NCBI RefSeq assembly: GCF_000934685.1 | Contig: NZ_JYNQ01000001.1 | Coordinates: 1,848,501 to 1,912,500 of the forward strand | Direction: 5' to 3' | Length of the DNA stretch: 64,000 nt | From: Lacinutrix sp. Hel_I_90 | GTDB lineage: Bacteria; Bacteroidota; Bacteroidia; Flavobacteriales; Flavobacteriaceae | Shown here: piece by piece, positions 20,678 to 54,517 of the stretch | Layout of the letters: every line of letters begins with the position of its first letter | How positions within the stretch are numbered: the stretch's first letter is position 1 | Translations under genes and position numbers: made by a program | Notes under the pieces: model-generated | Told to the model about the DNA's origin: nothing | Database searches by the model: none | The model's input: the letters and a program-made list of their open reading frames with translations, nothing else

Positions 20678-23242
20678 ATGAAAAATAGTTATATTCTATT
20701 CCTCTTATTTTTTACCTTCAGTTTTACTGAAGCACAAGACTTAGAACAGCAAATTATTGCCGCCACTGATGGGTTTATAAATAACTCCAGTAAGGAAGGT
20801 CTACACGTTTTAAACGAACAAATCGCTGTTTTTGAAACGCAGCTTACTTCAAAAAATGAGTACTATGAATTTATTTATTTACTGGTTAATAAAGCGTATT
20901 ATTTAAACCAAAACAACCAATTAAATGAAGCCATTCAAACTTACGAAAAAGCCTATTCATTATATAAAAAACAGAGCATTCTGGAATTCGATATTGTCGA
21001 GTATTGCTTAATCAATTTAGGCATTCTCTATCACAGAACAAACAATTATACCAATGCTGAAAACATTATAAAACAGTATCTTTTTATCGCTGAGAAAAAC
21101 AAAAACGTCTCACAGCAAATTAAAGGCGCAAAAAATCTGGCGAATCTTTACCAGAAATTGGGTAAGCATCAATCTGCAATTACCATTATTAATAACGCTT
21201 TAAAAACTAAAGGCATTAGCCCAAGTAAACGTCAAGAACTGAACCTCCTCAAAACACAAAGTGAAATTTCACTTAAAAGCCTAAAACCTTCACCAAACCC
21301 TGGACTTTTAACAAATAATAGTACACTATTAACCTACGAAACAGCGTATCTTTTAGCCAAGCAAAAGGGAGATTATGATCAAGCCTTAGACTATTTTAAG
21401 CGTTTAAAATCCTCTCGAAAAACAAAAAATCAGTCCATTGTGGATCTGGCTAAATTTAAATTTGAAGAAGCGCAACTTTATTTTTTGCTTGACGACAAAA
21501 ATAAAAGTGCAGAACAATTACAAGAGGCTCTAAAAATTTTAATTACCAATGTCAATCTCTCAAATGGATTACCTCCAAAACACCTACTCTTTGCTGAAAA
21601 TACATTTATTGATATTTTTGATCTCTTAGCTGAATTACAAACCAATCCAGAAAATACAATAGCTTGCTACGAATTAAGTTTTTATGTTTCTGAACTCCTA
21701 GAAAAAAACATCACAGATCAACAAGGCAAGCTTATTAATTTAATGAAAAACAGAAATCGCAGTGAACGTTGTATTTCAACCTTATACGAATTATCAAAAT
21801 CAAGCGATAATACAAAGCCAATTGCCCGTGCCTTTTCTTTTGCAGAACGACATAAAGCGGCCATTTTAAAAAGTGAAATTAAGAAAAAGTCACTTTTAGA
21901 AAACCATCCTAATGATAGTCTATTACTAAAGCAAAAGCAACTTTCTCAAATTCAAGAAGCGTTACGGTTTAAATTACTAACCAGACCTTATACTGCAGAA
22001 TCAGCACTTAAAATTAACAACTTACGAGATAGTATACATACCCTTTCTTTAGCTTTAAAAGAGGTGTCTGCCACTATAGAAAAAAAATACCCTACAAAAG
22101 AAACAACTACATCTTTTGAAGCCATTGGAGAAAAATTAAAGGAAGACGAAGCTACTTTAATTGAGTATTTCTTCGGAAAAACAAATATCTATCAGTTTAT
22201 CATTTCAGACACCACAGCAAAGCTTACGAAAATTCCTTTATCTGATAACACCCGAAAAAGCATTTCAACTTTTATTGACTATTTTAATACGCCTTCAGCT
22301 ATAAATAATAACGTTCCAAAATATACTAATGCTGCTTTTAATTTATATCAGTTACTTCAATTACAGCAAGTAAAAGACAAGCAAAACCTCATCATTATTC
22401 CAGATGGGTTTTTAAATTTTGTGCCATTTGATGCTTTACTTACAGAAAGAACAAATGCTCTTAAATTTGAGAACATGCCTTTTGTTGTAAAATCGCATAA
22501 ACTAGCGTATGTTTCTAATGTTGATTTGTATTTAAAGTCTTACCAACCTAGTAACTCACATAAGACTTTAGGTGTTTTTCCTGTATTTGAAAACGAGAAT
22601 CAAGAATTAAAATACTCTATAGACGAAGCAAAAAGTTTAGCAAAGGAAATGGATGTAACTTTGTTAATGAATGACAAAGCAACAAAGAAAGCATTTTTAG
22701 CGCAAGCTGAAATTTTCGATATTTTACATTTATCCACTCACGCCAGTAGTGGCGATTTTATAGAACCTGCCTATATAGAATTTAGAAATTCTAAACTTTA
22801 CTTAAACGAGTTGTATGGTCTAAATTTAAAAGCCGATTTAGTGGTTCTAAGTGCTTGTGAAACTGGCGTTGGTGTTTCACAACGTGGCGAAGGTGTTATG
22901 AGTGTCGCTCGCGGGTTTCAATATGCTGGCGCGAAAAACGTAGTATTCTCCCTTTGGCAAATTAGTGATTTTTCGACCTCACAAGTCATGACTTTATTTT
23001 ATGAAAAATATAAGGATTGCGGTTCTGCTTTTGAAGCCAATCATTTTTCAAAACTGGCTTATCTTAATGATTCTGAAATAAAAAACACAAAAAAATCACC
23101 GTATTTTTGGAGTGCTTTTACATACCATGGCGCATTAACTAAGCCCAAAGAAGAGACTACAAATTTAATCATCATCCTTTTAGTTTTAGCAGGAATAGCA
23201 CTACTTTTACTAGTGTTTTATAAATTTAAATATGGAAAATAA
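20678..23242 (+). CDS. Periplasmic TPR-CHAT peptidase with C-terminal membrane anchor
   Basis: An 854-residue protein. It has a signal peptide (about residues 1-19, ending TEAQ) and a long helical region (about 40-430) with TPR-like pairs such as NEAIQTYEKAYSLYKKQ. A CHAT domain follows (about 560-815) and then one C-terminal helix (about 826-847, LIIILLVLAGIALLLLVFY) with a short basic tail. CHAT domains are caspase-like cysteine peptidases. The catalytic His688 (LSTHAS) and Cys727 (LSACETG) are both present, so the enzyme should be active. The topology places the peptidase in the periplasm, tethered to the inner membrane. The stop overlaps the start of the retropepsin gene by 11 bp. Its substrate may be a neighbour such as the anti-sigma-like TPR protein or a lipoprotein; this is inference. 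Confidence 0.92.
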   Translation: MKNSYILFLLFFTFSFTEAQDLEQQIIAATDGFINNSSKEGLHVLNEQIAVFETQLTSKNEYYEFIYLLVNKAYYLNQNNQLNEAIQTYEKAYSLYKKQSILEFDIVEYCLINLGILYHRTNNYTNAENIIKQYLFIAEKNKNVSQQIKGAKNLANLYQKLGKHQSAITIINNALKTKGISPSKRQELNLLKTQSEISLKSLKPSPNPGLLTNNSTLLTYETAYLLAKQKGDYDQALDYFKRLKSSRKTKNQSIVDLAKFKFEEAQLYFLLDDKNKSAEQLQEALKILITNVNLSNGLPPKHLLFAENTFIDIFDLLAELQTNPENTIACYELSFYVSELLEKNITDQQGKLINLMKNRNRSERCISTLYELSKSSDNTKPIARAFSFAERHKAAILKSEIKKKSLLENHPNDSLLLKQKQLSQIQEALRFKLLTRPYTAESALKINNLRDSIHTLSLALKEVSATIEKKYPTKETTTSFEAIGEKLKEDEATLIEYFFGKTNIYQFIISDTTAKLTKIPLSDNTRKSISTFIDYFNTPSAINNNVPKYTNAAFNLYQLLQLQQVKDKQNLIIIPDGFLNFVPFDALLTERTNALKFENMPFVVKSHKLAYVSNVDLYLKSYQPSNSHKTLGVFPVFENENQELKYSIDEAKSLAKEMDVTLLMNDKATKKAFLAQAEIFDILHLSTHASSGDFIEPAYIEFRNSKLYLNELYGLNLKADLVVLSACETGVGVSQRGEGVMSVARGFQYAGAKNVVFSLWQISDFSTSQVMTLFYEKYKDCGSAFEANHFSKLAYLNDSEIKNTKKSPYFWSAFTYHGALTKPKEETTNLIIILLVLAGIALLLLVFYKFKYGK

Positions 23243-23681
23243 ACTAAAAGACTTTCTACTTAAAAATTCGTATAAAAAAATAAAATTAAAACTCACAAAA
23301 ACCAATCATTTAGAAGTCAAGGCCACTTTAAATGGCGTAAAAGGGTTGTTTATTTTAGATACGGGAGCTTCAAGTAGTTGCATTGGTTTTGCAGACACCA
23401 CATTCTTTAATTTAAAAGTAAAAGACTCGGAGATTAAAGCCGCAGGTGCTGGCGCAACTAATATGCTTACTCAAATATCTAACAGCAACACGCTTAAAAT
23501 AGGGCGTTGGAAAACAAAGAAACTAAAGCTTGTTTTATTTGATTTAGTTCACGTCAACACCGCGCTAGTTGCTCACAATGCTGCACCTGTCCATGGCATT
23601 ATTGGTGCCGATATTCTCAAAAAAGGAAAAGCAATTATAGACTACGATAAAAAATATCTCTATTTAAAACCCTTGAAATAG
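23232..23681 (+). CDS. Retropepsin-like aspartic protease
   Basis: A 149-residue single-domain protein with the active-site motif LDTGASSS (Asp43-Thr-Gly) followed by the typical second-half signature IIGADILKKGKAIIDYD. The length fits one retropepsin lobe, so activity would need a homodimer. There is no signal peptide or membrane helix, so it should be cytoplasmic, on the opposite side of the membrane from the CHAT peptidase it overlaps by 11 bp. Translational coupling implies joint function. It may process the cytoplasmic tail of a membrane partner. Proteins of this type are common in Bacteroidota, but their substrates are mostly unknown to me. Confidence 0.88.
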   Translation: MENKLKDFLLKNSYKKIKLKLTKTNHLEVKATLNGVKGLFILDTGASSSCIGFADTTFFNLKVKDSEIKAAGAGATNMLTQISNSNTLKIGRWKTKKLKLVLFDLVHVNTALVAHNAAPVHGIIGADILKKGKAIIDYDKKYLYLKPLK

Positions 23682-23727: not shown

Positions 23728-24369
23728 ATGAAAACCAGCATCGTAATCGCAGATGATCATCCATTAATGTTAAGAGGTCTTAGTGATTTTATAGAATCTA
23801 AGGGCTATACGATTCTTGGTCGAGCAGAAGATGGTCAAGCCGCATACAATCTTATTATAAAGCATAAACCAGACATTGCTATTCTAGACATTAGAATGCC
23901 CTATCTCACTGGGCTTGATGTCGCTGAGCATTGCCAAAAGAACGATTTAGAGACTAAAATTATTTTAATCACCTTCGATAATGAAGAGCAACTTTTTGAC
24001 AAAGCGAAAGCGTTTAATGTTTATGGCTATATTTTAAAAGAATTCGCTATTGAAGAAATTGAGCACTGTATTGAGCATGTAACACGTGGTGAGCCTTATT
24101 TTAGTGAAGAAATTGCTTCTTACTTAAATTCTAAAATTAAATATACCAATTCTGGCTTAACTGAATTATTAACTAAAACGGAAATGAAGGTGGCGCAGTT
24201 TTTGGCTGACAGTAAGACGAATACAGAAATTGCAGACATTTTAAACAGCTCGATTAGAACCATAGAGAAACACAGAAGTAATATTGTAAAGAAGCTAAAA
24301 TTAGAAAAATCTCATAATGCCCTAGTACTCTGGGCGAACATGAATAAAGAGTTTTTAAAAAATACGTAA
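23728..24369 (+). CDS. NarL/LuxR-type response regulator, orphan
   Basis: A 213-residue two-domain transcription factor. The receiver domain (about residues 1-120) has the acidic pair Asp9-Asp10, the phosphoacceptor Asp54 (AILDIRMP), a Thr in ILITF and the conserved Lys in YILKEF. A LuxR-type HTH follows (about 145-205, LTKTEMKVAQFLADSKTNTEIADILNSS and RTIEKHRSNIVKKL). No histidine kinase is encoded nearby. The stop codon lies inside the first copy of the palindrome TACGTAATTCAACGTA. That palindrome recurs upstream of every unit in the array that follows, so this regulator is the natural candidate to bind it. It has its own promoter at 23673-23700, which would separate it from the protease operon. 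Confidence 0.93.
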   Translation: MKTSIVIADDHPLMLRGLSDFIESKGYTILGRAEDGQAAYNLIIKHKPDIAILDIRMPYLTGLDVAEHCQKNDLETKIILITFDNEEQLFDKAKAFNVYGYILKEFAIEEIEHCIEHVTRGEPYFSEEIASYLNSKIKYTNSGLTELLTKTEMKVAQFLADSKTNTEIADILNSSIRTIEKHRSNIVKKLKLEKSHNALVLWANMNKEFLKNT

Positions 24370-24413
24370 TTCAACGTATTTTTTAAAAGTAAAATTCCTT
24401 TTATCTTTACAAT

Positions 24414-24485
24414 GCTATTAATCAAGTATGACAGAGATTTCAAGCTCCATAGTATTAAGGGATACTATGGAGCTTCTCTTTTTTT
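24414..24485 (+). ncRNA. Array small RNA 1
   Basis: Predicted transcript of about 70 nt from the box TATCTTTA (24402-24409). The stem AAGCTCCATAGTAT (24442-24455) pairs perfectly with ATACTATGGAGCTT (24462-24475) around a TAAGGG loop. Seven T follow, a good intrinsic terminator. No start codon opens a frame longer than a few residues. The start site is estimated, not measured. Confidence 0.65.
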
Positions 24486-24562
24486 AACTACATTCACTTC
24501 GTTATTTAAAAACAGGTAATTCTACGTGTTTCTAATACTAAAATTCACTTTACCTTTACAGT

Positions 24563-24633
24563 GCTATTAATTAATTAAACAGAGATTTCAAGCTCCATGG
24601 TATTAAGGGATACTACTGGAGCTTCTCTATTTT
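24563..24633 (+). ncRNA. Array small RNA 2
   Basis: Box TACCTTTA at 24551-24558 and hairpin 24590-24624 with the same outer stem AAGCTCCA/TGGAGCTT and the same TAAGGG loop as unit 1. The middle of the stem is imperfect, and the upstream palindrome (24511-24531) is degenerate. This unit may be decaying. Confidence 0.55.
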
Positions 24634-24710
24634 ACAAACTACTTTATTCCCAAAAAAAATACGTAATTCAACGTATTTTATAATTCATCAATCTAGTCTA
24701 CCTTTACAGT

Positions 24711-24779
24711 GCTATTAATCTATTACCAAAGAGATCAGCCTCCACATTACTGGGAGATAATGTGGAGCTTCTCTATTTT
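24711..24779 (+). ncRNA. Array small RNA 3
   Basis: Box TACCTTTA at 24699-24706. CTCCACATTA (24740-24749) pairs with TAATGTGGAG (24758-24767) around CTGGGAGA. Flanking AGAGA and AG pair with CT and TCTCT across small bulges. Compared with unit 1, both arms of the stem have changed together, which preserves pairing. Confidence 0.65.
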
Positions 24780-24855
24780 ATAAACCTAACTATTCTGAAA
24801 AAAATACGTAATTCAACGTATTTTATAATTCATCAATCTAGTCTACCTTTACAGT

Positions 24856-24924
24856 GCTATTAATCTATTACCAAAGAGATCAGCCCCCACATTACTGGGA
24901 GATAATGTGGAGCTTCTCTATTTT
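24856..24924 (+). ncRNA. Array small RNA 4
   Basis: A near-exact copy of unit 3, offset by 145 bp, with its box at 24844-24851 and hairpin at 24885-24912. One base change in the left arm (T to C) introduces a single mismatch in the stem. Confidence 0.65.
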
Positions 24925-25000
24925 ATAAACCTAACTATTCTGAAAAAAATACGTAATTCAACGTATTTTATAATTCATCAATCTAGTCTACCTTTACAGT

Positions 25001-25069
25001 GTAATTAATCTATTACCAAAGAGATCAGCCTCCACATTACTGGGAGATAATGTGGAGCTTTTCTATTTT
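25001..25069 (+). ncRNA. Array small RNA 5
   Basis: A near-exact copy of units 3 and 4, with its box at 24989-24996 and hairpin at 25030-25057. A C-to-T change in the outer right arm is tolerated as a G-U pair. Confidence 0.65.
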
Positions 25070-25093
25070 ATAAACTCTACTCTTCTGAAAAAA

Positions 25094-25142
25094 AATACGT
25101 AATTCAACGTATTTCATAATTCATCCATGTAATCTACCTTTA
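25094..25142 (+). promoter_or_regulatory. Sixth array promoter, driving a small ORF
   Basis: Palindrome from 25094 and box TACCTTTA at 25135-25142, as in the other units. The leader differs. It carries a small hairpin, GTTCTT (25158-25163) pairing with AAGAAC (25167-25172) around AGG, and continues to the ATG at 25228. Confidence 0.6.
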
Positions 25143-25227
25143 CAGTGTTATTAATTAGTTCTTAGGAAGAACCCATTATAAAATTCTGAGGAGTAACTGC
25201 CCAGCATTTTTAATTAAACCAAAAAGT

Positions 25228-25323
25228 ATGGAAGAAACAACATTGAATAAAACGTTTGTTATTAGCATTATCGTTGTCGCGGTAATTGTAATTTCAATTA
25301 ATATTATTTCTGCTTTTTTTTAA
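25228..25323 (+). CDS. 31-residue single-helix membrane peptide
   Basis: A short ORF encoding MEETTLNKTF followed by an uninterrupted hydrophobic stretch of about 21 residues (VISIIVVAVIVISINIISAFF). The composition is that of a small bitopic membrane peptide: an acidic N-terminus, one lysine, then one helix to the end. It is the only ORF behind the sixth palindrome promoter of the array, about 80 nt after the predicted start site, and ends before the sucB terminator. It could be a regulatory micropeptide acting on a membrane protease or sensor, or a type I toxin-like peptide. No family is recognised. The coding status rests on position and hydrophobic pattern only. Confidence 0.55.
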   Translation: MEETTLNKTFVISIIVVAVIVISINIISAFF

Positions 25324-25397: not shown

Positions 25398-26651
25398 TTA
25401 AAGCTCTAAAGCTCTTTTTACATCATTATCCATTAACAATTCAGTTGGGTTTTCTAAGGCCTCTTTAACAGCAACCAAGAAACCAACACTTTCTTTACCA
25501 TCGATTATTCTGTGATCGTAAGATAATGCAACATACATTATAGGTCTAATTTCTACGTGGCCGTCAATCGCAACAGGACGTTCTACAATATTATGCATTC
25601 CTAAAATACCACTTTGAGGCGGATTGATAATTGGTGTAGACAACATCGAACCAAAGACACCTCCATTAGAGATGGTAAATGTTCCTCCAGTCATTTCATC
25701 CACTGTTATTTGACCATCACGCGCACGTATAGCTAAACGTTTCACCTCCGCTTCTACCCCTCTGAAAGAGAGGTGTTCGGCATTTCTAATCACAGGTACC
25801 ATGAGACCTTTTGGCCCAGATACAGCAATACTAACATCAACAAAATCGTAAGACAACATTTCCTTACCATCGATCATAGAATTAACTGCCGGATACATTT
25901 TTAATGCTCTAACAACCGCTAATGTGAAGAAAGACATAAAACCTAATCCAACACCATGCTTACTTTTAAATGTTTCTTTGTATTCATTTCTTAAAGCAAA
26001 AATAGGTGACATATCAACTTCATTAAACGTCGTTAACATCGCGGTAGTATTTTTAGCTTCCACCAAACGTTCTGCCACTTTACGTCGTAACATAGACATT
26101 TTACTTCTTGAAGTACCACGACTTCCACCCGTTGGAGTTCCCATAGACGGCACTGCATTTACAGCATCGTCTTTAGTAATACGTCCATCTTTTCCTGTAC
26201 CAGTAACAGCTGATGACGCCATCCCTTTTTCAGCCAAAATCTTTTTGGCTGCAGGACTTGCTATACCAGATGCGTAGGTATCTTTTGCTGGATTTGGTGC
26301 TTTATCATGCTTTTGAGTATTAGCAACCGATTTTTGATCTTTAGCTAATTTTTCTTCTACATCATCATTTCCTCCTTCATCACCCCCTTCATAAGTAGAT
26401 GTTTCAGGTGCTTTAGCTTCTGTGTCTATTAAGCAAACCACTTGCCCGACCGCAACAGCATCTCCTTCTTCAGCTTTAAGTGTGATAGTACCACTCGCTT
26501 CTGCTGGTAATTCTAAAGTTGCTTTGTCACTATCAACTTCTGCAATGGCCTGGTCTTTTTCTACATAATCTCCATCTTTTACTAACCATTCTGCAATTTC
26601 AACTTCTGTAATAGACTCGCCTGGTGAAGGCACTTTCATTTCTAAAATCAT
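25398..26651 (-). CDS. sucB: 2-oxoglutarate dehydrogenase E2, dihydrolipoyl succinyltransferase
   Basis: Transfers the succinyl group from lipoate to CoA in the TCA-cycle 2-oxoglutarate dehydrogenase complex. Domains in order: a lipoyl domain (about residues 1-77) with the lipoylated Lys43 in [13 protein letters not shown], an acidic and alanine/proline-rich linker, a peripheral subunit-binding domain (about 128-165, [14 protein letters not shown]) and the acyltransferase core ending near residue 415 with [16 protein letters not shown] (catalytic His and Asp). The length of 417 is normal. It is encoded downstream of the E1 gene on the same strand with a 127-bp gap. The E3 subunit is not in the window. 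Confidence 0.96.
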
Positions 26652-54440: not shown

Positions 54441-54464
54441 TAAAAGTATAAAACACTATTAAAT

Positions 54465-54497
54465 AAAAAAGCATCTTCTTTACGAAGATGCTTTTTT
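54465..54497. terminator. Bidirectional intrinsic terminator
   Basis: AAAAAAGCATCTTC (54465-54478) pairs with GAAGATGCTTTTTT (54484-54497). It lies between the convergent lipoprotein and MORN-type genes and has T runs in both directions. Confidence 0.85.
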
Positions 54498-54517
54498 ATT
54501 TTTTTATTATCTCTAAT

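Follow-up and report, generated by a model that had tools for sequence, protein, structure and literature searches.

The window analysed here, a 64,000-nucleotide stretch of the Lacinutrix sp. Hel_I_90 genome (contig NZ_JYNQ01000001.1, positions 1,848,501 to 1,912,500), carries a tandem array of six palindrome-promoter units that begins on the stop codon of a gene for a NarL/FixJ-type response regulator (RR). We confirm the array and find it conserved among relatives. Five of its units are predicted to give terminator-ended RNAs of ~70 nt, and the sixth leads into an open reading frame (ORF) for a 31-aa membrane peptide. We consider it probable that the whole is an RR-driven multicopy small RNA (sRNA) module which, in many relatives, may feed back on the RR mRNA.

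The tandem array and its conservation

A repeat search recovered the palindrome block six times, at spacings of 150, 147, 145, 145 and 146 nt, and the hairpin block five times, and Tandem Repeats Finder reported tandem repeats at 24351-24720 (period 148) and 24617-25155 (period 145). The pattern TACGTNNNNNNACGTA, allowing at most one mismatch, matched six times in the window, five of the matches being exact and in the array; 1.0 match was expected, and 0 of 100 shuffled sequences reached six. These positions agree with the first-pass annotation of this DNA, which had described six units of 145-150 bp period starting on the RR stop codon, with a degenerate palindrome in unit 2 and a box about 40 bp after the palindrome start; we measured 39 nt for this distance, except in unit 2, where it is 38 nt. 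Units 1-5 follow one plan: palindrome, 23-nt spacer (22 nt in unit 2), TAnCTTTA box, RNA 5' end GCTATTAAT (GTAATTAAT in unit 5) and a closing terminator hairpin with a T-run. By reading, the window units have no TTG in the -33 area, as had also been stated, and across the family TTG stands there in 10 of 229 units. The earlier description of a six-unit sRNA array holds for the five hairpin-ended units of ~70 nt; unit 6 has the palindrome, box and 5' region without a terminator hairpin, and is the leader of the 31-aa ORF, which had been left out. The 152-nt blocks of units 3 and 4 are 99% identical and the unit 5 block 95%, while units 1 and 2 diverge more, which points to recent duplication or conversion inside an older array. 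The features of the array, followed by those of the surrounding locus, are:

24363..24378, +: palindrome of unit 1 (TACGTAATTCAACGTA); the RR stop codon, 24367-24369, lies within it
24402..24409, +: promoter box of unit 1, -7 type (TATCTTTA); palindrome start to box start, 39 nt
24413..24484, +: sRNA unit 1 body (GCTATTAAT 5' end; terminator hairpin, AAGGG loop); covariance model R1 55.6 bits, unit 1 being itself a member of R1; model R2 37.5 bits, E 5.6e-5
24513..24528, +: degenerate palindrome of unit 2 (CAGGTAATTCTACGTG), from the repeat search
24562..24633, +: sRNA unit 2 body (AAGGG loop); R2 24.7 bits, E 0.016
24660..24675, +: palindrome of unit 3, from the pattern search
24710..24779, +: sRNA unit 3 body (GGGAG loop); R2 27.8 bits, E 0.004
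24805..24820, +: palindrome of unit 4, from the pattern search
24855..24924, +: sRNA unit 4 body; R2 E 0.06
24950..24965, +: palindrome of unit 5, from the pattern search
25000..25069, +: sRNA unit 5 body; R2 E 0.08
25096..25111, +: palindrome of unit 6, preceding the peptide ORF, from the pattern search
25135-25142, +: promoter box of unit 6, where the first-pass annotation ended
25146..25227, +: predicted transcript start of unit 6 and peptide-mRNA leader (TTAGTTCTTAGGAAGAAC, a form of the family 5' module); R2 33.7 bits, E 2.9e-4
25228..25323, +: 31-aa single-transmembrane (TM) peptide ORF MEETTLNKTFVISIIVVAVIVISINIISAFF; a TM-peptide ORF recurs at relatives' loci
23728..24369, +: RR gene, 213 aa, receiver plus GerE/LuxR helix-turn-helix (Pfam Response_reg 1e-24, GerE 2.4e-12)
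23232..23681, +: retropepsin-like aspartyl protease gene (Asp_protease_2 9.8e-11), ending 46 nt 5' of the RR gene
20678..23242, +: TPR-CHAT protein gene, codirectional and upstream (CHAT 6.4e-43)
25398..26651, -: convergent 2-oxoglutarate dehydrogenase E2 gene (sucB/odhB; NCBIfam sucB 9.6e-145, above cut-off), the locus boundary

The RR, whose residues D9, D10, D54 and K104 are invariant in an alignment of 16 orthologs, is the predicted activator of the array. It lies beside protease-like proteins with no adjacent kinase. A Pfam search gave no family for the 31-aa peptide.

Named genomes were scanned with a 16-row RR alignment, and the best 80 of 551 related stretches were taken (RR 60-90% identical), among them loci from Lacinutrix, Bizionia, Olleya, Algibacter, Flavivirga, Tamlana and Hyunsoonleella. 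Because these loci were selected through the RR, its presence in them is no test of the regulator link. In the 2.2 kb after the RR gene, none of the 81 loci (window included) lacks a unit; the total is 229, at one to eight per locus: 3 loci have a single unit, 42 have two, 20 have three and 16 have four to eight. The palindrome-to-box distance was 39 nt in 218 units and 38 nt in 9, the box being unclear in 2, a result that is partly built in since the count demanded a palindrome at a set distance. A count free of this constraint took as anchors all matches to GCTATTAAT with no more than one mismatch, 255 in the 81 loci. An upstream palindrome of at least 9/12 accompanied 222 of them, versus 15 with shuffled upstream sequence, and in 191 of the 222 the palindrome lay exactly at -51 from the G of GCTATTAAT. 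Sequence comparison establishes several homologous units with their own promoters and terminators in 78 of the 81 loci (148 non-last units); the other three loci are single-unit. In one Bizionia locus (L055), eight units fill the 2.2 kb to its end, spaced 141 to 542 nt apart with three of the spacings at 287-290 nt, and the wide ones suggest that larger blocks were amplified there than in the window.

The predicted RNAs are conserved in structure as well. Thirty-one aligned units were picked from 77 non-redundant ones, and a two-hairpin structure specified by us was tested on them. Paired cells made up 92.7%, versus 82.9% in shuffled alignments, and 19 of 22 pairs had changes on both sides, versus 8.4 in shuffled and 5-11 in slid versions. 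RNAalifold, run unaided, returned the terminator hairpin only, in which 13 of 14 pairs show two-sided changes. Hairpin 1 exposes AGGG. Single-sequence folds for the window and its nearest named relative (L064) lack hairpin 1; there it is the terminator hairpin that carries a G-rich loop, AAGGG or GGGAG. Covariance model R1 has 73 positions and includes two window units, so that a second model, R2, was built with all window sequence excluded. Across the 64 kb, R2 still put units 1 and 6 first, followed by units 3 and 2 and then by units 4 and 5, with a non-unit hairpin at 54454 (E 0.026) between. That hairpin (54454-54512; 24 bits) is probably an ordinary terminator.

These results bear on a reading of the array as a decoy, in which the palindromes would titrate RR protein and the RNAs would be by-products. 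Up to eight near-identical palindromes beside the RR gene fit such a role, and exact palindromes occur elsewhere in the genome too. A decoy, however, could do without a fixed box distance, a conserved 5' RNA end or covarying hairpins. The units have each of these features, and we regard a decoy as very improbable. In the RR-driven model, the RR would bind the palindrome just upstream of each unit, with its centre ~43 nt before the likely start, a position from which a NarL-type regulator could replace the missing -33 element. It would thereby switch on five terminator-ended RNAs of ~70 nt and one mRNA for the 31-aa membrane peptide, and tandem copies would raise the dosage of stable RNAs. The earlier interpretation, an activator-driven redundant sRNA family, is supported by the sequence, from which we infer transcription and RR binding.

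It is also conceivable that the units are terminated leaders of the membrane-peptide gene, tuning read-through. A TM-peptide ORF is present in 75 of the 81 loci (the misses being L060, at a contig end, L055, where units fill the stretch examined, and four others), and the leader of the last unit resembles the sRNA units, with a hairpin of the same kind in many species. Moreover, in eight loci of another type (L038-L045, the kinase-type loci), the RR gene is followed by one ACGT-palindrome and then a TM-peptide ORF in 8/8, so the peptide may be the older output; GCTATTAAT lies within 330 nt after the RR gene in 1/8 of them (L040). The upstream array units, on the other hand, have their own promoters and terminators, and the RNA module occurs at other loci with no TM-peptide ORF within 400 nt (17/17 loci checked). 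We judge an attenuator array improbable. The neighbour of the RR gene is swapped between the two types of locus. A TPR histidine kinase and a sucB relative are each present in 8/8 kinase-type loci, where no retropepsin relative was found, whereas the fetched stretches of the 80 array loci contain a retropepsin relative in 80/80, a CHAT relative in 40/80, a sucB relative in 65/80 and no relative of the TPR histidine kinase.

Regulators and palindrome types

The first-pass annotation proposed a covariance search of the family with comparison to Rfam. At E <= 0.001, R1 matched in 93 of 299 Flavobacteriaceae genomes (77 of 236 genera), and Rfam scans of the window and of eight relatives' loci gave no family for the RNAs, Flavo-1 included. 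A sample of the order gave matches in 9 of 119 genomes, three of them clear. Five of the six weak ones (38-44 bits) were inspected and set aside; they have no palindrome or regulator and look like ordinary terminators or chance, so that matches near E 0.001 in the family search are not trustworthy singly. Unpaired hairpins and an absent regulator at homologous loci had been named as grounds for rejecting the array; the hairpins pair with compensatory changes, and most of the matches examined adjoin a regulator.

That annotation had also asked whether copies always sit beside this regulator. We compared 59 of the matches listed for R1, in genomes shared with the RR-ortholog search. At least 45 are within 2.5 kb downstream of the RR gene on the same strand, 10 are in other places of genomes with an RR ortholog, and 4 come from genomes for which no ortholog was listed; at least 32 of 57 RR-ortholog genomes have a listed match placed downstream in this way. 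The link to the RR stands for most of the copies compared, and others lie beside different regulators. We collected 31 further units, from 20 stretches holding 23 far-from-RR matches (two at RR loci of other genomes) and from eight loci found by their palindrome, for which only the regulator is an independent observation. Twenty-seven of the 31 adjoin a regulator of the kind that their palindrome predicts. TACTC..GAGTA is present in 24 units, and 23 of these follow a gene for a PAS-like LuxR protein, relatives of that at locus L193, at a gene-to-RNA distance of 53-148 nt (483 for the second of a double unit); L205 has no LuxR relative within 1.4 kb. TACG..CGTA is present in two, both following an RR gene, and ACGG..CCGT in two, both 184-186 nt after the gene for the 221-aa protein of a kinase-like/receiver-like pair. 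The weak receiver match of this protein (E 0.004) and the weak HATPase_c match of the preceding TPR protein (3.8e-4), both from searches of one of the two copies, are under cut-off. The L193 LuxR protein matches GerE (5.2e-16) and falls just under cut-off for PAS_3 (24.9 of 25.6 bits), and its convergent gene is murF (TIGR01143 2.5e-101). As judged from these loci, the palindrome type follows the neighbouring regulator while the RNA 5' module stays the same. The reading of the palindrome as an activator site is strengthened, since the RNA is preceded, at an unchanged position, by a different palindrome where the regulator is a different one.

The genome of the window itself appears to contain a second regulator-sRNA unit. 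Because a search with the TACTC pattern also gave many reversed-control matches, only TACTCAA(A/T)TTGAGTA places were followed, 8 of 10. At G000:C1:716849-716894 (L222), a PAS-like LuxR gene is immediately followed by its own palindrome, a box, CGCTATTAAT and a terminator hairpin, and the RNA body matches R2 weakly (23.9 bits, E 0.017).

Two observations weigh against a strict tie between palindrome, regulator and sRNA. Among the 31 further units, four lack a matching regulator alongside (the L205 unit, and one each in L198, L200 and L204 that fit no palindrome class), and right-spaced palindromes also precede ordinary genes, so the site is not sRNA-specific. The palindrome followed by 23 nt and TANNTTTR, with at most one mismatch, gave 71 matches in 18 of 40 genomes, versus 4 in 4 genomes for the reversed control. 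In five genomes of the window's genus (L158, L163, L164, L168 and L170), such a promoter outside the array precedes a gene for a conserved membrane protein of 144-145 aa (MSEIFT... or MSENFS...). As the starts of non-array transcripts lack GCTATTAAT, the RNA 5' end is not simply a promoter requirement. Repeated intergenic elements with an RR-type palindrome, a box such as TAnnTTCG, the array spacing and a different gene after each were seen at G000:C1:752931, 756236 and 1462772 of the same genome (L006, L007, L009) and at L156, L157, L159, L161, L162, L165, L166, L171-L173 and L175; their make-up resembles that of mobile gene cassettes under an RR-responsive promoter. An exact palindrome (TACGTAAATTTACGTA, G000:C1:1335762-1335777, L008) lies ~180 bp upstream of a curlin-repeat gene (Curlin_rpt 1.1e-26), possibly by chance, as the reversed control gave two genome matches. 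Of the palindrome-only matches in this genome, L003 (imperfect and terminator-like by eye) and L015 (coding by eye) were set aside.

Complementarity to the RR mRNA

In the model we favour, the RNAs would base-pair in vivo through two exposed parts, the 5' end GCUAUUAAU and the G-rich loop (AGGGA/GGGAG), and in many relatives would target and repress the ribosome-binding region of the RR's own mRNA, a negative feedback in the manner of the Qrr RNAs. Copies of the 5' module under other regulators would act on this target as well. For the 78 loci with non-last units, we searched for helices between the first 36 nt of these units and the RR start region (-50..+6), taking as controls 705 leaders of other ORFs of at least 120 aa from the same loci. 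The best ungapped helix averaged -13.6 kcal/mol for RR leaders versus -9.1 for controls (Mann-Whitney 2e-26, the species not being independent), and the RR leader was the best of its locus in 47 of 78 (8.3 expected), or in 43 of 75 (10.1 expected) when longer RNA parts were used. TAATAGC, the complement of the RNA 5' end, is present in 39 of 81 RR leaders versus 2 of 705 others, and TCCCT in 29 of 81 versus 2 of 705; 16 of 81, versus 0 of 705, have CTCCC within their last 25 nt. Single cases look co-evolved: UUUUUGGGAGAAU with AUUCUCCCAAAAA in L058, and UUUAAGGG with CCCUUAAA in L047. Across all 76 species, own pairings were better than swapped ones (2/5000 permutations for the loop part, 24/5000 for the 5' 36 nt).

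Several results weigh against RR feedback as a general rule. The own-versus-swapped comparison fails among 27 relatedness-thinned species (877 and 1631 of 5000), and is weak in 30 non-canonical species (233/5000 for the loop versus -25..+3; 810 and 1008 of 5000 in two other settings). Gapped duplexes of whole RNAs separate less (RR best in 23 of 78, 8.3 expected; own -17.3 versus swapped -16.8); we dropped these energies as a measure because long gapped duplexes dominate them. Reversed RR leaders pair well too (-11.5 kcal/mol), so that base composition supplies part of the signal, and the two leader blocks are ordered as in the sRNA, which makes a single continuous antiparallel duplex of both impossible. 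The window's RR leader is a weak partner (-8.6 kcal/mol; 6 of 8 controls equal or better), and so are that of L064 (12 of 14 controls equal or better) and those in much of the Lacinutrix/Bizionia group; an RR-leader target is not recognisable by complementarity in the window's own species.

There is, in our estimate, a little less than an even chance that the sRNAs are RR-activated and the RR mRNA is not their main target, the RR-leader complementarity being secondary or limited to part of the family. The window species keeps five sRNA units and L064 three, though their RR leaders lack complementarity, and inspection by eye showed no obvious match in the leaders of the other regulators that have the 5' module. 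Among 46 window ORFs, the CHAT gene has the best leader for units 1 and 2 of the window (AGGGATACT / AGTATCCTT, -15.0). Against a different main target, no second recurrent one was found among the leaders compared: across loci, CHAT leaders were near chance (best in 8 of 40, 6.8 expected), as were retropepsin leaders (11 of 76, 10.1 expected), and the CHAT leader was rejected as a general target. Taken together, the complementarity points to a Qrr-like feedback onto the RR in many relatives and not in the window's species. The Qrr-like logic of the first-pass annotation gains a candidate target in many relatives and lacks a recognisable one here; on the Algibacter-Flavivirga-Hyunsoonleella side, and in some species of Olleya and Lacinutrix, RR feedback is a good hypothesis, and it is unsupported for the window species.

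The RNAs would act unaided or with another protein, as profile searches of the window's genome found neither Hfq (PF17209, 0/1; 5 of 14 control genomes match) nor CsrA (PF02599, 0/1; 3 of 14 control genomes match). The latter search counts against a sponge of the CsrB/RsmY type, in which GGGA loops would bind a CsrA-like protein under a GacA-like regulator, also of the NarL/FixJ type. The hairpin loops do contain GGA and the RR is of the NarL/FixJ type, yet with CsrA not found by a profile that matches in control genomes, we think a sponge most unlikely, though a different protein of like binding preference may take the place of CsrA.

Relation to known small RNAs and implications

We file the RNAs as a new sRNA family of the regulator-driven multicopy kind, outside named families. 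At gathering score, no Rfam family was found in the window, and permissive matches of the array, in a test that included Flavo-1, were all below cut-off; in the loci of eight relatives, only tRNAs were above cut-off. Qrr is not among the permissive matches either, which bears out the earlier view that the array is unrelated to Qrr in sequence, and no LhrC model is among the Rfam matches of the array. The Qrr RNAs of Vibrio are activated mainly by LuxO with sigma-54, depend on Hfq and are encoded by mostly unlinked genes. Unlike these, the array has tandem copies with an adjacent NarL-type RR, in a genome where no Hfq was found. In the available part of the Qrr1-5 account, LuxR activates qrr2-4, which lower luxR, so that several redundant sRNAs stand in negative feedback with an activating regulator, as proposed here (PMC2680268).

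By analogy, LhrC/LisR is at least as close a parallel as Qrr. As far as the available text of that report goes, LhrC1-5 of Listeria monocytogenes are five near-identical sRNAs, four in one locus, all LisR-dependent at the promoter, and block translation of target mRNAs via redundant single-stranded motifs (PMC4132741). They resemble the array in their near-identical copies and in the control by one response regulator that is predicted for it, and differ in their Gram-positive host, their CU-rich rather than G-rich motifs and their binding to Hfq (PMC4132741). In the same phylum as the array, the multicopy FopS family of Bacteroides is described, in the portion of the source available, as 14 members whose conserved 5' seed binds near start codons, with SusC-type targets (PMC11697453). 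There it has canonical housekeeping promoters and is not described as one tandem array, its sequence relation to the array being judged from Rfam scans only (PMC11697453). Rfp18 of Flavobacterium psychrophilum is likewise an sRNA of Flavobacteriaceae; its predicted structure is strong, it is conserved in more than one species and it has protease targets; according to the accessible part of its description, it pairs via a third stem-loop, whereas the array RNAs are predicted to have two hairpins, and it is set apart by description, not by sequence (PMC9723704). An activator site on the regulator's stop codon, and one module behind several regulators, do not feature in the available portions of the LhrC, Qrr and FopS accounts. 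The open-licence literature, judged by titles and abstract openings, yielded no regulator-linked tandem sRNA family in Flavobacteriaceae, and few sRNA studies in this family turned up there.

The RNA module, seen in 77 of 236 genera sampled, has a predicted activator site, a probable activator and a candidate target within ~2 kb, and it makes a small testable system, one that bears on sRNA action without recognisable Hfq, on the upkeep of tandem copies and on regulators sharing one RNA output. Its promoter signature (palindrome, 23 nt, TAnnTTTA) is usable for finding the regulons of unstudied LuxR-type regulators. The regulators seen with the module at their 3' end are the RR beside a retropepsin and often a CHAT gene, the PAS-like LuxR protein near murF and the kinase-like/receiver-like pair. 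A more tentative and rather unlikely extension is that Flavobacteriaceae possess a general cassette of a regulator plus its own sRNA, placed behind the regulator's own palindrome, whose copies pool on the RR mRNA and sum inputs without Hfq. If that were true, several signal inputs would be summed into the repression of one regulator.

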